Shown here: one piece after another, positions 3,376-16,398 of the stretch
Layout of the letters: each line of letters starts with the position of its first letter
Position numbering within the stretch: position 1 is the stretch's first letter
Origin: a virus
Virus record (IMG/VR): IMGVR_UViG_3300029787_000239
Coordinates: 4,182-28,705 of that record
DNA: 24,524 nucleotides
Strand: one strand, 5' to 3'
Position numbers and translations under genes: made by a program
Notes under the pieces: model-generated
Seen by the model: the letters and a program-made list of their open reading frames with translations, nothing else
What the model was told of the DNA's origin: nothing
Database searches by the model: none

Positions 3376-3623
3376 CTTTCCTCAAAGGTTAATTTTCTAA
3401 TTTTTCTTTTACGTCTCTTCTCTTGATATTTTAGATCTTCTTCTGAAAAAAGAGATTGTTTTTTTACTTTCTTATTGTTTTGTAACAATACAACAAGATC
3501 CATGTTGTTTGCAGATATAACATCCTCATTTATAGTTGTCATATTACTACAACCACAACAAATAATCTTACTTGATTGTCCTTGCAACTCCTTTCCACAA
3601 GCAGTGCATCTTACTGTAATCAT
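3372..3623 (-). CDS. Zinc-ribbon protein, 83 aa
   Basis: The N-terminal 30 residues hold four cysteines in two knuckles (CTAC at 6-9 and CCGC at 22-25), a likely single Zn2+ site. A hydrophobic helix (DLVVLLQNN) and a very basic C-terminal tail (KYQEKRRKRKIRKL) follow. Similar small Cys-knuckle proteins occur in many marine T4-like phages without an assigned role. Nucleic acid or protein binding is an inference from the zinc knuckles and the basic tail. The start overlaps the endonuclease stop by 4 nt. Confidence 0.75.
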   Translation of the reverse strand: MITVRCTACGKELQGQSSKIICCGCSNMTTINEDVISANNMDLVVLLQNNKKVKKQSLFSEEDLKYQEKRRKRKIRKLTFEER

Positions 3624-4087
3624 TGTTCTGTAAAATAATCTTTTCTATAGTAACGTCCTAAGATGTTACTGTTATAATATTTTGGAGTACCATCTTCTAG
3701 AGTCTCCTGTAATACATTATTTAAAAATAATTGTTTAGTCTCTTCGTAGTTTACTTTCCCTAGGGTTGCATGGAGGGAGAGGATTTCTCTCTTGAAGTTT
3801 TGTTTACCAAATTGTTTAACATCGGCTTTAAGCTCTGGAGAACTTCCGTAGTATTTTTTCCAGTCACTCTCAGACGTAACTCTCCGTTTACTTTTGCCAC
3901 TTCTAGGCTTTCGTTTTTGTACGAAGTATTTTCTGCCGATGTATTGCTTGCTAGTTTGAAGATTAGTAATCCTGTAGACGAAACCGAACTTACCGTCAAT
4001 GTCGTCAGAAGTAAAAGTTGAACCTTGATAGGTCCAGGGGTTCTCATAATCTCCTTCACCCACTGCGGTCTTTGCGGTGGTTTCCAT
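3620..4087 (-). CDS. GIY-YIG (SegE-like) endonuclease
   Basis: This appears to be a stand-alone GIY-YIG homing-type nuclease of the SegE-like family. The N-terminal catalytic strands are FVYRITN (residues 36-42) and QYIGRK (48-53), matching the GIY...YIG pair, with FVY in place of GIY. A basic loop (KRKPRSGKSKRR) follows, then the helix SDWKKYYGSSPELKADV. Next come KREILSL, the Glu-containing helix NYEETKQLFLN and the Asn-bearing YYNSNILGR, the usual order of catalytic Arg, Glu and Asn. The start at 4087 has a poor ribosome site. An exact TATAAATA box lies about 25 bases upstream, resembling T4 mobile endonuclease genes that carry their own late promoter. Whether it is mobile, or has become a repair or recombination enzyme, cannot be read here. 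Confidence 0.82.
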   Translation of the reverse strand: METTAKTAVGEGDYENPWTYQGSTFTSDDIDGKFGFVYRITNLQTSKQYIGRKYFVQKRKPRSGKSKRRVTSESDWKKYYGSSPELKADVKQFGKQNFKREILSLHATLGKVNYEETKQLFLNNVLQETLEDGTPKYYNSNILGRYYRKDYFTEQ

Positions 4088-4130: not shown

Positions 4131-4389
4131 TACCGCTATCCTTATACTTCTTTATACTCTCTTCCCATTCACTCATAGAAGATTGTAACTGTCCATTATT
4201 TTCATCTGGATAATCTACTACTATACCTTTGATCCTTCTCCATTCATTATGCATTGCACCCAGTATCCATGAGGATGAAAGTGAGTCGGGACCTTTTTCT
4301 AATAACTCAACCTGTCTCTTAGTTAATTGTCTGCCTTTAATATCAATGTATTCAGACCTCCAATTACTATCATCATAATCTTTTATCAT
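4126..4389 (-). CDS. Conserved marine-phage hypothetical protein, 87 aa
   Basis: No enzymatic motif is visible. The protein begins MIKDYDDSNWRSEYIDIKGR and has a central QVELLEKGPDSLSSSWILGA helix pair, a pattern I recall from proteins next to nrdB in T4-like marine phages. It is polar, with Trp and Glu/Lys-rich ends, probably cytoplasmic and helical. The start overlaps the nrdB stop as ATGA, so translational coupling to nrdB is likely. A role connected with ribonucleotide reduction is only suggested by position. Confidence 0.72.
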   Translation of the reverse strand: MIKDYDDSNWRSEYIDIKGRQLTKRQVELLEKGPDSLSSSWILGAMHNEWRRIKGIVVDYPDENNGQLQSSMSEWEESIKKYKDSGI

Positions 4390-12821: not shown

Positions 12822-13034
12822 CTAGGTTCTATTTATATCTCTAATATCCTTTACCCACGCACGGAACATTTCACCCTCCTCAGTAACACATATAACATAG
12901 TTAACACCTGCTCTGTGGATCTTACCTTTTTGTCCTGTGGTAGCATTCATTACGTAATCACCCTCAACAAATACTTCTTTCTTACGGTACTGTTGTCTGA
13001 GTGCTTGTTCACGTAGTTTTCTAAAGTTTTTCAT
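12822..13034 (-). CDS. KOW/SH3-like small protein with capsid-targeting-like N-terminus, 70 aa
   Basis: The N-terminal MKNFRKLREQALRQQYRKK is a basic helix that resembles the T4 capsid-targeting peptide, and L-R-E before Q fits the L-x-E cleavage rule. Residues 22-70 look like a small beta barrel of KOW/SH3 type: EGDYVMNATTGQKGKIHRAG, then VNYVICV, then GEMFRAWVKDI. Such barrels bind nucleic acid or protein. It abuts the DUF6321-like gene with no spacer, and its last codons contain the late box of the following gene. Family membership is inferred from the strand pattern only. Confidence 0.65.
   Translation of the reverse strand: MKNFRKLREQALRQQYRKKEVFVEGDYVMNATTGQKGKIHRAGVNYVICVTEEGEMFRAWVKDIRDINRT
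12830..12837 (-). promoter_or_regulatory. T4-type late promoter TATAAATA for 273-aa gene
   Basis: An exact TATAAATA on the minus strand, inside the last codons of the 70-aa gene and about 30 bases upstream of the ATG at 12800. Confidence 0.68.
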
Positions 13035-13292
13035 TTAGCATTTCCACTTCCGTAGTGCTAATGCCTTACGGGTTGGTCTTCCTTTCTCATCTTTCATAGG
13101 TCCCTTTACTCCACCCATTCTTGCACAGAATGATCTCTTTCTAGGTCCTCCACCAGGTTGTGGTGCTTTTAAATCACTACCAGGATTCTCACGTTCATAA
13201 GACTTGCGACCCTTTTCATTGAGTCCACCAGACTTATTCTTACCCTCTTTACGTTGCCAAGCAGATTCTTGGAAATCTTGAAATGTTTTCAT
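13035..13292 (-). CDS. DUF6321-like basic protein with capsid-targeting-like N-terminus, 85 aa
   Basis: The N-terminus MKTFQDFQESAW closely follows the T4 internal-protein targeting peptide MKTYQEFIAEA. The rest is Lys/Arg/Gly-rich, with a GGLNEKGRKSYERENPGS block, an RKRSFCARMGGVKGPMKDEK block and the ending RPTRKALALRKWKC. I recall this pattern as DUF6321, a domain widespread in marine phages without a known function. The conserved Cys residues (CAR and the terminal Cys) could be metal ligands. The start overlaps the nucleotidyltransferase stop by 4 nt. A small DNA-binding protein packaged in the head is a hypothesis. Confidence 0.75.
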   Translation of the reverse strand: MKTFQDFQESAWQRKEGKNKSGGLNEKGRKSYERENPGSDLKAPQPGGGPRKRSFCARMGGVKGPMKDEKGRPTRKALALRKWKC

Positions 13293-13858
13293 TTAAAATT
13301 TGCTGGTAAATTTGATGCAATTTCTACCATCATAGCATAACAGTCTTTATCACTTAATGTTTTTGGTATGCCTGCACGAAATGCTTTGAAGTCACCAGCA
13401 AATGCTGCTCTTCTCATCTTAGTACCAGATACTGCAAAGGTATCACCATCTGCATCTCTACTACCAGAAGATACTATTTGTAAAACACGAAATGAAAAAT
13501 CTTTATCATTGCCATTGTATTTATGTAAGAATTGCATCGCACCAACCCTATCAGAGCCTACAAGAAACACCGCTTCATCATATCCTCCCATCATTAAATC
13601 TTTCATAATAGCAACTGGTTCTCTAGGACCACTATAAAACTTACCTTTATGCTCTGGAAACATTTTAGTTATCCAAAACAATTTTCTATCTGGTGGTAAT
13701 GGATTTTTACCCTTAGTATCTACAGTTTGTGAGATGTATATACGATAATCATCAGCACCAGCTGCTCTCTTTACACCAGCAAAGTTGTCTTTGTGTCCAG
13801 AAGTAGGTGGTTGAAACCTACCAAATGTAAAGTAACATCTTTTACCCTTTAACGCCAT
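13289..13858 (-). CDS. NadM/cytidylyltransferase-like nucleotidyltransferase, 189 aa
   Basis: An alpha/beta-phosphodiesterase (HIGH-type) nucleotidyltransferase fold. The N-terminal strand and loop YFTFGRFQPPTSGH (residues 9-22) holds the nucleotide-binding T-x-G-H variant. LVGSDRV follows at 99-105, and the VSGTKMR (143-149) is the S-x-T-x-x-R triphosphate motif. The family includes NMN adenylyltransferase and cytidylyltransferases; marine phage copies are often annotated as cytidylyltransferase. The real substrate cannot be decided from sequence. The gene overlaps the ligase-like gene by 10 nt and the DUF6321-like gene by 4 nt. If it makes NAD from NMN, NAD could feed the neighbouring ligase-like enzyme, but no evidence here shows that. 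Confidence 0.85.
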   Translation of the reverse strand: MALKGKRCYFTFGRFQPPTSGHKDNFAGVKRAAGADDYRIYISQTVDTKGKNPLPPDRKLFWITKMFPEHKGKFYSGPREPVAIMKDLMMGGYDEAVFLVGSDRVGAMQFLHKYNGNDKDFSFRVLQIVSSGSRDADGDTFAVSGTKMRRAAFAGDFKAFRAGIPKTLSDKDCYAMMVEIASNLPANFK

Positions 13859-15054
13859 TGTTTTGCCAAAGTAAAGTTAATGTAAGAGAACTCTAAACGG
13901 TTAACAAACTTAATCATATCACCATTTCTATGTAGTACATACCCTTCAGGTCCTGTGATCTTATATCCGTTGTCAGTCTGAGCAAATGTTCTAAAAGTTT
14001 CTAGATGATCTAGTTTATTAATAACCATTTGCTTAACTGTCTGTAATTCTTTATAAAGATTCAGCATTGATTTGAATTTATACGAATTAAGTCTTAAATA
14101 GTTCTGACTATTGTGTACTAACTTACTCTTCTGTGCCTTGGTTGATGCTGTTTTAATCTTATCAAGCATTGCTGTGGTCTTATCATAGTAAAAATTATAA
14201 AGATTTTCAAATGATGTATCAGCATTAGTAATAGTCCTTGCTGCTTTTATCTCAGCATTAAAAAATGGTTTTAAATATGATGCTACATGCCACTTTTCAT
14301 CACCTGTTTTACCTGTATTGGTGACCAATTCATCAAGAAAATCACCACACTTCATACACATTGCTTCTATGTCTGATACATGTTTATCAAACTTGACTTC
14401 TTCTTGATGATTTAACCCTACCTTATGCATAGGAGTATCATTATTGATCACCGCTACTTCAGACATATTGTTAAATGATCTGATATCTGCTCCAGCCACG
14501 GCTTGTAAGCTAGAAAGTCTATCTCCAATGTAACTGGTGTGAAATACCACGCCAATCTCTGCTCCTTTAATTTTTTTACCTATCTCATGGTCTACAGGAA
14601 TACCATAGGTGATAGTATTAGGTCTGAATATGTACAACTTTTCACCATGAATGGTCTCTGTTTTGACATCTTTTTTTGTAAACATCAAATCTCCCTGTAT
14701 CACTCCTTCAATACCAAGACCTGCAAACATATTCAATGCTACATGTAATTTGTCTGCTAAATCACCTGAGTAAAAAGCATCAATAACTGTGTGATTTGTA
14801 CAAACTTTTGGATTTTCTTTATTGAAAACAGATTTAGTTCCAACAAAAAAATGACCTGTAAGAGGATGTTTACCACACACTATAGAAGGTGCTCCATCCC
14901 ATTTAGTTTGCATAAAACCTGTACTATTATCACATCCAAGCATCCTTCTTAATTCTTTTAAAAAATTAACAGCAGCTTTACACCCCTCAACACCATAGTT
15001 GAGCATCTCATCTTCTAAATGTTCTAAATGTTTTAGTTGTGTTACGTTAGCCAT
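13849..15054 (-). CDS. DUF6267-like protein with nucleic acid ligase-type motifs, 401 aa
   Basis: I recall this as the DUF6267 family of marine T4-like phages, with no assigned role. Residues 50-56 read TKWDGAP, matching motif I (K-x-D-G) of covalent nucleotidyltransferases, where Lys51 would carry the AMP. GDLMF at 121-125 and TITYGIP near 147-153 sit where motifs III and IIIa would be. PEGYVLH (369-375) and MIKFVNR (380-386) near the C-terminus look like motifs IV and V (E-G-x-V and K-x-V). Between them is a largely helical insertion of about 190 residues. The motif order is right, but the spacing is unlike classical ligases. A DNA or RNA ligase-like activity is inferred. Its start overlaps the stop of the 437-aa gene by one base. 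Confidence 0.8.
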   Translation of the reverse strand: MANVTQLKHLEHLEDEMLNYGVEGCKAAVNFLKELRRMLGCDNSTGFMQTKWDGAPSIVCGKHPLTGHFFVGTKSVFNKENPKVCTNHTVIDAFYSGDLADKLHVALNMFAGLGIEGVIQGDLMFTKKDVKTETIHGEKLYIFRPNTITYGIPVDHEIGKKIKGAEIGVVFHTSYIGDRLSSLQAVAGADIRSFNNMSEVAVINNDTPMHKVGLNHQEEVKFDKHVSDIEAMCMKCGDFLDELVTNTGKTGDEKWHVASYLKPFFNAEIKAARTITNADTSFENLYNFYYDKTTAMLDKIKTASTKAQKSKLVHNSQNYLRLNSYKFKSMLNLYKELQTVKQMVINKLDHLETFRTFAQTDNGYKITGPEGYVLHRNGDMIKFVNRLEFSYINFTLAKQWR

Positions 15055-16367
15055 TATAAAGTAGGGGGTTGTGTGTTAGTTTTATAGTCACCATTAGTAT
15101 GTGATGGCCAAACAGCACCTTGTTTATTTCTTATATTAAAAGTAAAATTATATTTTTGAGTTGCAAAGATCATATTAATTCTTTTACTTTTTCCATCACT
15201 TCCTCCATACTGTAGTTCTACTTTATTAGACTTAAGTGTTGAAGCTCTTTTACAATATGGTTCATCTATCTCATAAAATTCAAACTTTCCTTTGGTAAAA
15301 TGTGCCATCCAATAACCATATCCAACACCACTATAAATTAATTTTTCTAATGATGTTTTTTGAGTAGGAGTAAGAGTAGTATTAACTATATAAGGACTCA
15401 TTCCAGAACCGCCCTTATTAAATTTTTTAAAAATATCTATGAAAGGTTGTTGTTCTATGTTAAACATGTCTAATAATGTCTGGCCAGCTGGTGCTATCTC
15501 ATCATTATTCATATCTTCATGAACAAAGAAAGGAGTAGCATCTTTAGATCCTTTACCTTGTACACCACAATTAAAAAATGCTAAGGTTTCACCATATTTT
15601 ACTGAAATATAATATGTGTCAGCACTTGGATCTGGTTTATCTGTATATTTTGTCATGTCACCACCATACTGAACCATTACATCCTGTATAGTTTCACCTA
15701 TTTTTGCGTCTGTTTTACCATCAGATGATATAACAACACCTCCCGCTTTTTCAACGAGAGGTCTTGAAGTATTTTGTGGTCCTGCCCATTCAACATAAGA
15801 TAAACCAGCACCACTAATATTTTCAAAGTGCTGATTCATTTTTTCAACATGTACTGCCCAAGGTTTTCCATCTATATTATTACCCATAGACAAAGACTTA
15901 TAAGTAGATGCTAATTTCTGCTCGTATTCAAGACCAAAGTTAACTTTCTTTCCGCCTGGTCCTTGACCACCAAACTGCATCTTTGAAATATCATCTAGTT
16001 TTAAGTCAAATCTTTTATTATTTAACGATCTACCAGGTAAACTACAAACAAAATCTATATCGTTACCACCTCGCAATCCATCACATAATCTAGACATAAA
16101 AAAATTTTGAAACATTCTGATATCTTCTTCTAGATACCTCATGTTATGTACTTTTATGTGAAATTTTTGTACTTGTTTATCTTTTGATTTAGATCCTGGA
16201 TTAAGACGTTCGGATAAAATTACTTCATGTATCTGTAGTACACCATGTTTAGTAACAAATCTATTGTCTTTTCCATTTAGACGAAACAACATGTCAAAGA
16301 AGTCAGTTGACCTTCCTTGATAATCTAAATCTGCTTGAGTAGGTTTTGCAAGATCCGAAGCTTTCAT
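15054..16367 (-). CDS. Uncharacterised 437-aa protein, possible PD-(D/E)xK-like nuclease
   Basis: No family is recognised with certainty. The middle contains NFGLEYEQKL (residues 143-152), ETIQDVMVQYGG (225-236) and TYYISVKYGETLAFFN (251-266). The order Glu...Asp-x-x-Val...S-x-K inside beta strands resembles the PD-(D/E)xK nuclease core (Glu147, Asp229, Lys257). Many substitutions of that core exist, so the match is weak. The N-terminal 130 residues have alternating helices and strands with no known motif. It heads the cassette with the ligase-like and nucleotidyltransferase genes, behind a TCTAAATA box and a hairpin. A DNA end-processing enzyme working with the ligase-like neighbour is my hypothesis. 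Confidence 0.7.
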   Translation of the reverse strand: MKASDLAKPTQADLDYQGRSTDFFDMLFRLNGKDNRFVTKHGVLQIHEVILSERLNPGSKSKDKQVQKFHIKVHNMRYLEEDIRMFQNFFMSRLCDGLRGGNDIDFVCSLPGRSLNNKRFDLKLDDISKMQFGGQGPGGKKVNFGLEYEQKLASTYKSLSMGNNIDGKPWAVHVEKMNQHFENISGAGLSYVEWAGPQNTSRPLVEKAGGVVISSDGKTDAKIGETIQDVMVQYGGDMTKYTDKPDPSADTYYISVKYGETLAFFNCGVQGKGSKDATPFFVHEDMNNDEIAPAGQTLLDMFNIEQQPFIDIFKKFNKGGSGMSPYIVNTTLTPTQKTSLEKLIYSGVGYGYWMAHFTKGKFEFYEIDEPYCKRASTLKSNKVELQYGGSDGKSKRINMIFATQKYNFTFNIRNKQGAVWPSHTNGDYKTNTQPPTL

Positions 16368-16371
16368 CGTA

Positions 16372-16390
16372 GATGAGTACTATACTCATC
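16372..16390 (-). promoter_or_regulatory. Hairpin in leader of 437-aa gene
   Basis: Minus-strand GATGAGTA (16390-16383), a 3-nt loop and TACTCATC (16379-16372) form a perfect 8-bp stem, 4 bases before the ATG at 16367. Transcripts started at the adjacent late box (about 16385) would lack most of the 5' arm. Read-through transcripts would keep the whole stem. Confidence 0.6.
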
Positions 16391-16398
16391 TATTTAGA
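16391..16398 (-). promoter_or_regulatory. Late-promoter-like box TCTAAATA for 437-aa/ligase-like/NTase cassette
   Basis: TCTAAATA differs from the T4 late octamer at one base. It lies just inside the gap after the mazG stop (16400) and 24 bases before the ATG at 16367. The same variant occurs in the tandem pair at 4123-4130. Confidence 0.5.

Follow-up and report, generated by a model that had tools for sequence, protein, structure and literature searches.

According to a 2010 review, cyanomyoviruses lack several genes of bacteriophage T4, namely gene 30, denA, ndd and denB (PMC2984593), which raises the question of what, if anything, stands in for their products in these phages. This question bears on a 24,524-nucleotide stretch of viral DNA (hereafter the window; positions 4,182 to 28,705 of IMG/VR record IMGVR_UViG_3300029787_000239), part of a 28.7-kb viral contig from an uncultured phage, in which three overlapping minus-strand open reading frames (ORFs) encode proteins of 437, 401 and 189 amino acids (aa). 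An earlier note, made from the letters of the window, had read them as a nuclease-like, ligase-like and nucleotidyltransferase cassette under a late-type promoter; on checking ORFs and sequence, we found the three genes, their overlaps of 1 nt and 10 nt, the motifs and the late box all to be as it described. The cassette is a direct candidate for the gp30 and denA/denB functions reportedly absent from cyanomyoviruses. The explanation we favour, to which we give an even chance, is a late-made nucleic-acid-processing set that is partly head cargo, in which a nuclease would attack host or competitor DNA and the ligase-like protein and adenylyltransferase would process or protect ends and sustain a cofactor. 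The three genes are:

15054..16367, minus strand: slot-X gene (phrog_8438), encoding the 437-aa nuclease-like protein, with an N-terminal domain at about residues 1-130 and a predicted HinP1I-like domain at about 135-436
13849..15054, minus strand: DUF6267 gene (PF19782; Pfam E 7e-118), encoding the 401-aa putative ligase-like nucleotidyltransferase
13289..13858, minus strand: nucleotidyltransferase (NTase) gene (phrog_3041, E 1e-62), encoding the 189-aa putative HUP-fold adenylyl/cytidylyltransferase, NMNAT-like

Motifs and predicted folds of the cassette proteins

The Pfam entry DUF6267 gives a name and no function, no mention of that name was found in the literature searched, and a Pfam scan of the 401-aa protein returned only DUF6267 above cut-off, with no match to PF01068 or RNA_ligase. 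The protein carries KWDG at residues 51-54 (including K51), EGYV at 370-373 and KFVNR at 382-386. Across an alignment of 42 DUF6267 homologues reaching down to about 30% identity, K51, D53, G54, K74, Q120, D122, E370, G371, V373, K382, V384 and R386 are invariant, and nine isolate proteins outside this alignment keep every one of these residues. In order and spacing, the invariant residues match motifs I, III, IV and V of the covalent nucleotidyltransferases, with an invariant Q120-x-D122 on a predicted strand occupying the place of motif III instead of the usual glutamate. Three of the motifs map to the window as follows:

14902..14904, minus strand: K51, putative nucleotidyl-accepting lysine of motif I (K-x-D-G), invariant
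13942..13947, minus strand: E370-G371, motif IV, invariant
13909..13911, minus strand: K382, motif V (K-F-V-N-R), invariant

A helical insert at about residues 216-349, short in the S-RIM8 clade, precedes motif IV, and the chain stops about 19 residues past motif V, leaving no C-terminal OB domain; nor was the C-terminal domain of T4-type RNA ligases (Rnl) seen in DUF6267. When the AlphaFold2 (AF2) model (predicted local distance difference test, pLDDT, 88.6) was given a structural second look (VIA), it matched Naegleria RNA ligase (Z 7.6), T4 Rnl2 (6.8) and T4 Rnl1 (6.4), and RNA or DNA ligases made up nearly all of the 50 best structural rows, the best Z of 7.6 being modest. Because nearly all of these rows belong to one superfamily, and because that superfamily's motifs are the invariant residues, we call the 401-aa protein ligase-like, as the earlier note had proposed, on the strength of sequence and a predicted model. 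PHROG 455 and one metaG-MbCM1 ORF join DUF6267 and the NTase in a single chain; the ORF (L365:2492-4678, 728 aa, annotated NrdB) comes from a metagenome assembly and is a possible artefact.

In the 437-aa protein, E149, D229, S255 and K257 are invariant in all members of its family (31/31), in which identity falls to about 25%, and in every one of the 31 a serine (Ser255) stands where the PD-(D/E)xK signature has D or E. These residues lie at the following positions:

15921..15923, minus strand: E149, on helix 144-160, invariant
15681..15683, minus strand: D229, putative metal ligand at the start of predicted strand 230-234, invariant
15597..15605, minus strand: S255-x-K257, at the ExK position of PD-(D/E)xK nucleases, invariant

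VIA-align matched residues 135-436 of the AF2 model (pLDDT 83.9) to the whole of the restriction endonuclease HinP1I (207 residues, Z 8.4), followed by a designed protein (4.8) and the restriction enzyme SwaI (3.7), and Foldseek against viral models returned only unnamed or uncharacterized relatives above threshold. The PD-(D/E)xK core fold is thus found in a predicted, not a solved, structure, and this HinP1I-like model, together with the invariant E149, D229 and S255-x-K257, bears out the description of the protein as nuclease-like.

Different proteins occupy slot X in other phages. Clustering them gave 17 groups, or about a dozen once a helicase group and stray genes were removed, and D...S-x-K is conserved in at least six slot-X families, most of them also with the upstream invariant E. 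Profile comparisons linked several of the other families, for example 6 with 0 (98%) and 7 with 3 (97.6%); a common origin of the window's own family 1 with the others was considered and found unsupported, its profiles reaching at most 7%. Slot X is hypervariable next to conserved DUF6267 and NTase genes, with a median pairwise identity of 34% versus 71% and 62%, respectively. From sequences and models we infer a nuclease slot under strong turnover, whose products would act by cleavage.

The 189-aa protein has TSGH at residues 19-22 and SGTKMR at 144-149, with G21, H22, S144 and R149 invariant in 21 aligned sequences and GRFxPxTxGH and S-x-T/S-K-x-R conserved among its relatives. It falls in phage 'cytidyltransferase' PHROGs, matches TIGR01526 (NadR, E 0.012) and PF01467 (E 0.17) below curated cut-off in both cases, and finds NadR as its best PDB match (E 0.014). 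Hidden Markov model searches of PDB sequences returned NadR and NadM, weakly, for the NTase profile, and no relevant match for the DUF6267 or 437-aa profiles. The motifs are consistent with a HUP-fold adenylyltransferase, and with these weak NadR-type matches they agree with the NMNAT-type assignment first made for this protein; supply of nicotinamide adenine dinucleotide (NAD) by it would be plausible. Elsewhere in the window, an ORF at 3620-4087 carries a NAD synthetase label through phrog_447. Several homing-endonuclease PHROGs also match it, and judging from its sequence the label looks like an annotation error that lends no support to NAD supply.

Late-type promoter, hairpin and head-targeting peptides

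When would such a set be made, and where would it act? Two elements lie upstream of the slot-X gene:

16391..16398, minus strand: late-promoter-type octamer TCTAAATA, one mismatch to the S-PM2 late consensus
16370..16392, minus strand: perfect 10-bp inverted repeat with a 3-nt loop, between the octamer and the 437-aa start codon

The published S-PM2 late promoter is NATAAATA (PMC2984593). At 172 of 181 loci, the 100 nt preceding the slot-X gene contain the pattern N[AC]TAAATA, compared with 4.5% of random positions, a descriptive ratio among loci related to each other and neither a probability nor a significance test; the late-type promoter of the earlier note is in this respect a common feature of the locus. 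Inverted repeats overlapping the late box were present in 68/153 distinct slot-X upstreams versus 9.7% of the same octamers elsewhere. Read-through RNA folds at the window's repeat (z -3.3), but RNA from the predicted late start, taken as about 6 nt past the octamer, does not (z -0.06). By this folding prediction, the hairpin would mask the start region when RNA reads through from upstream, and not when it is made from the late promoter. T4 holds back early translation of some late genes by such hairpins, and by analogy the window's hairpin may parallel them.

Further signals lie at the protein N-termini. In two clades of relatives, 137 of 141 NTase ORFs start with MKKFSAFLTEA or MKKFSEIxEA, resembling a capsid-targeting sequence (CTS); T4 IPII and IPIII start with MKTYQEFIAE, and T4 gp21 cleaves after L/I-x-E (PMC9026906). 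DUF6267 has a CTS-like start, MINFSSFLTEDK or similar, in 64/80 Melnitz-like loci, and MMKFTQFLAES in Stenotrophomonas phage DLP6; such starts are also found on slot X in a few loci, and in a comparison set of upstream ORFs the strict pattern fits 14 of 870. The NTase of S-SM1 (T4-GC190), which starts with MKKFSAFLNE, was detected by mass spectrometry in purified virions (PMC3037559). Because of the CTS-like peptides in relatives and the S-SM1 NTase in virions, we revised the site and time of action, which the earlier note had placed late in infection. By analogy with these relatives, the evidence suggests a set made late that acts, at least partly, at the start of the next infection.

At the window's cassette, CTS-like starts occur only on two small downstream proteins:

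13035..13292, minus strand: 85-aa DUF6321 protein (Pfam E 2e-25), start MKTFQDFQES, CTS-like by pattern only
12822..13034, minus strand: 70-aa protein with CTS-like start MKNFRKLREQ by N-terminal pattern, matching phrog_395 and phrog_455

The DUF6321 gene overlaps the NTase gene by 4 nt, and the 70-aa protein shares homology with the C-terminal domain found in virion NTases, that of S-SM1 among them. Both the 70-aa protein and a second small protein (L001:7757-8011) adjoin the NTase and match this C-terminal domain; they bear ribonucleotide reductase (RNR) or NrdB names in PHROG or GenBank and have no reductase domain.

Distribution and genomic context

Between 468 and 470 phage records contain DUF6267, and nearly all of them are cyanophages (371 Synechococcus-named, 61 Cyanophage and 24 Prochlorococcus phage), and the T4-like marker UvsX gave 375 Synechococcus-named and 61 Cyanophage records. 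The other carriers are Pelagibacter, Methylophilales, Vibrio, Pseudoalteromonas and Stenotrophomonas phages. Among complete genomes tested, 13/14 have DUF6267, with T4 as the sole exception, and the NTase, like DUF6267, is nearly universal among cultured T4-like cyanophages. The NTase gene lies no more than 2.6 kb from DUF6267 in 206 of 212 testable loci, 74 loci repeat the 10-nt overlap between these two genes, and 79 repeat the 1-nt overlap between slot X and DUF6267. The co-occurrence expected by the earlier note is therefore conserved, and of the outcomes open to computation that it had named as telling against it, namely models lacking a ligase or nuclease fold and genes failing to co-occur, none came true.

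Twelve Kyanoviridae-type genomes contained no recognisable ATP-dependent DNA (PF01068), NAD-dependent (PF01653) or Rnl2-type (PF09414) ligase; a gp30-type ligase is present in T4 and in DLP6. The latter phage encodes, alongside its gp30-type ligase, the DUF6267 protein with the CTS-like start (L084:8877-10178), and an annotated exodeoxyribonuclease VII large subunit follows its NTase.

The contig follows the order of T4-like cyanophages, with DNA polymerase, UvsX, gp41 helicase and MazG ahead of the cassette and small proteins, a head-protein homologue, primase gp61 and NrdA/NrdB after it, and cultured relatives (Kyanoviridae, e.g. S-WAM2) share this gene order. A PADLOC scan gave no defence-system match.

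Other genes accompany the cassette in some relatives. A P-loop kinase (Zeta_toxin/AAA_33/PSTK-like) is encoded in the same region of Pelagibacter phage HTVC008M (L253:6742-7404) and at a further locus (L145:928-1611), where it begins with the CTS-like peptide MKTFRELKEG; such a kinase would complete a nuclease-kinase-ligase set. In Methylophilales-type phages, very basic proteins of 120-130 aa with CTS-like starts (L085:6194-6586 and L254:6254-6625) sit between DUF6267 and the NTase and are likely DNA-binding internal head proteins. DUF6267 contigs also turned up in genome bins of bacteria and archaea (L329-L364); because these bins span unrelated phyla, the contigs are probably misbinned phage DNA and not host genes.

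Competing explanations and known systems

The favoured explanation builds on what is observed (the genes, their motifs and conservation, the late-promoter motif and the targeting-type peptides of relatives), adds predicted folds, and supposes catalysis, delivery of the window's own proteins and a target. It takes the cassette to be expressed late and to lie in the region where marine T4-like phages encode their head cargo (internal proteins). The 437-aa protein would be a nuclease of restriction-endonuclease fold, one of the occupants of a hypervariable slot; DUF6267 would be a nucleotidyltransferase of ligase fold that takes up AMP on Lys51 and then joins or adenylates the ends of nucleic acids; and the 189-aa protein would be an NMNAT-like adenylyltransferase. 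The late promoter would drive transcription, with the hairpin keeping read-through RNA from early translation. Head packaging would include the NTase at the minimum, joined in some clades by DUF6267 and slot X, and the packed proteins would reach the next host together with the phage DNA. Once inside, the nuclease would turn on DNA of the host or of a competitor, while repair or priming of ends and upkeep of the cofactor would fall to the ligase and NTase.

Several observations weigh against this explanation. Foldseek alone against the PDB gave no significant match for either the DUF6267 or the 437-aa model, so that HinP1I and the ligases could be separated only by the VIA second look, and the Z scores of 7.6 (DUF6267) and 8.4 (437-aa) are close to the level reached by unrelated models. 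Comparison of DUF6267 with T4 Rnl1 and Rnl2 by hhalign failed (about 1%; the control of Rnl1 against Rnl2 reached only 21%), and we therefore call the protein ligase-like and not a member of any named ligase family. A CTS-like start is missing from the window's 437-, 401- and 189-aa proteins, and in the window-like clade it is carried by no NTase (0/82) and no DUF6267 (0/82); because the peptide is absent from this clade's three enzymes, packaging of the window's own enzymes is something we infer. The set is also not obligatory, since DUF6267 can sit apart from slot X and NTase: in a whole-genome search of S-SM2 it lies beside a helicase and away from both, in P-SSM2 and Bellamy it is apparently also unlinked, and slot X is absent beside DUF6267 in 22/60 Melnitz-like loci. 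To our knowledge, no activity is known for any member of the cassette families.

Several other accounts of the same genes can be set against these data. A head-borne weapon is possible, if doubtful: a rapidly swapped restriction-type nuclease would be injected together with ligase-like and NMNAT-like enzymes of its own, the set would take over the functions of DenA/DenB and gp30, and the nuclease slot would diversify in an arms race with hosts or rival phages. We rate as unlikely that DUF6267 is the replicative or recombination ligase of cyanomyoviruses, standing in for gp30 in the infected cell, with slot X and NTase as separate head cargo sharing its late transcript. The near-universal DUF6267, with record counts close to those of UvsX, the lack of a PF01068, PF01653 or PF09414 ligase in the 12 Kyanoviridae-type genomes, the S-SM2 arrangement beside a helicase and the position of the cassette between gp41 and gp61/nrdAB all fit such a role, but DUF6267 has no C-terminal OB domain of the DNA ligases, RNA ligases rank first structurally, one clade has a CTS-like start on DUF6267, and a host ligase is able to replace gp30 (PMC2984593). 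The idea that DUF6267 is a mere gp30 replacement everywhere is weakened by DLP6, which has both.

That RNA ligases are the nearest folds (Naegleria, T4 Rnl2, T4 Rnl1) would also suit a head-delivered RNA-repair kit, in which the ligase-like protein mends tRNAs or other RNAs after host defence nucleases have cut them, and the NTase and an occasional P-loop kinase are accessory; phages are known to counter tRNA cleavage by RNA repair (PMC9503650), and the kinase occurs in the cassette region of HTVC008M and L145, the latter with a CTS-like start. We consider it quite unlikely, however, as kinase ORFs are rare (three in all, of which one is a fragment), the nuclease slot looks like a DNA restriction enzyme, and the T4-type Rnl C-terminal domain was not seen. 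The replacement of families in one fixed slot, their fast divergence and the restriction-like fold of the 437-aa model could instead mark slot X as a selfish or anti-competitor nuclease, serving superinfection exclusion or acting homing-like, with a turnover that tracks rival phages and is unrelated to host-DNA breakdown or the ligase. This strikes us as very unlikely for a gene that, unlike free-standing homing genes, is late-transcribed and often translationally coupled to DUF6267, and Pfam and PHROG scans showed no homing-endonuclease family resemblance. Least credible is that these are degenerate or structural proteins, enzyme-derived folds serving as inert internal head proteins or packaging scaffolds. 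T4 internal proteins do include non-essential ones without known enzyme activity (PMC9026906), and a serine replaces the usual acidic residue in S-x-K, but the candidate catalytic residues are all invariant while slot X falls to about 25% identity, and proteins that had lost their activity would not have kept them.

T4-like cyanophages, like their SAR11 and methylophile relatives, abound in the sea, and the cassette offers testable candidates for their host-DNA breakdown and ligase; its genes occur in nearly every sequenced member, yet are annotated as hypothetical or wrongly as NrdB/RNR. If the favoured explanation is true, DUF6267 would be a new protein family in the ligase superfamily, and the cassette would define a new class of delivered phage enzymes that combines a hypervariable restriction-like slot, a conserved ligase-like gene and, on relatives, head-targeting peptides.

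Each part resembles a known kind; the literature found describes neither their combination nor the hypervariable slot nor the delivery signals. With the type II restriction endonuclease HinP1I (PD-(D/E)xK), the 437-aa model aligns over 207 of 247 HinP1I residues and places an invariant acidic residue and S-x-K at the superfamily's D and (D/E)-x-K positions; it differs in its 10% identity, the serine in place of an acidic residue, an extra N-terminal domain and its setting as a phage late gene with no methyltransferase partner seen beside it. DUF6267 shares K-x-D-G, E-G and K-x-V, in order, with Naegleria RNA ligase, T4 Rnl2 and T4 Rnl1, and likewise no C-terminal OB domain, but has Q-x-D for the motif III glutamate, a helical insert, about 130 residues long, ahead of motif IV, an invariant HLEHxED-type N-terminus and no sequence-profile match. 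It would fill the ligase gap of cyanomyoviruses left by T4 gp30 DNA ligase, from which it differs in having neither a PF01068 match nor an OB domain and in being encoded together with a gp30-type ligase in DLP6. The NTase resembles the NMN adenylyltransferases NadR and NadM in GRFxPxTxGH and S-x-T/S-x-x-R and in its best, though weak, profile matches; it stays below curated cut-offs, has no kinase or Nudix domain, and in relatives is fused to a CTS and a small C-terminal domain. T4 head cargo has no nuclease-ligase-NTase set, and the window clade's enzymes are without a CTS, but the CTS-like N-termini of the relatives' NTase and DUF6267, the late-type promoter and the variable cargo are all features in which the cassette resembles the T4 internal head proteins (IPI-III, Alt).

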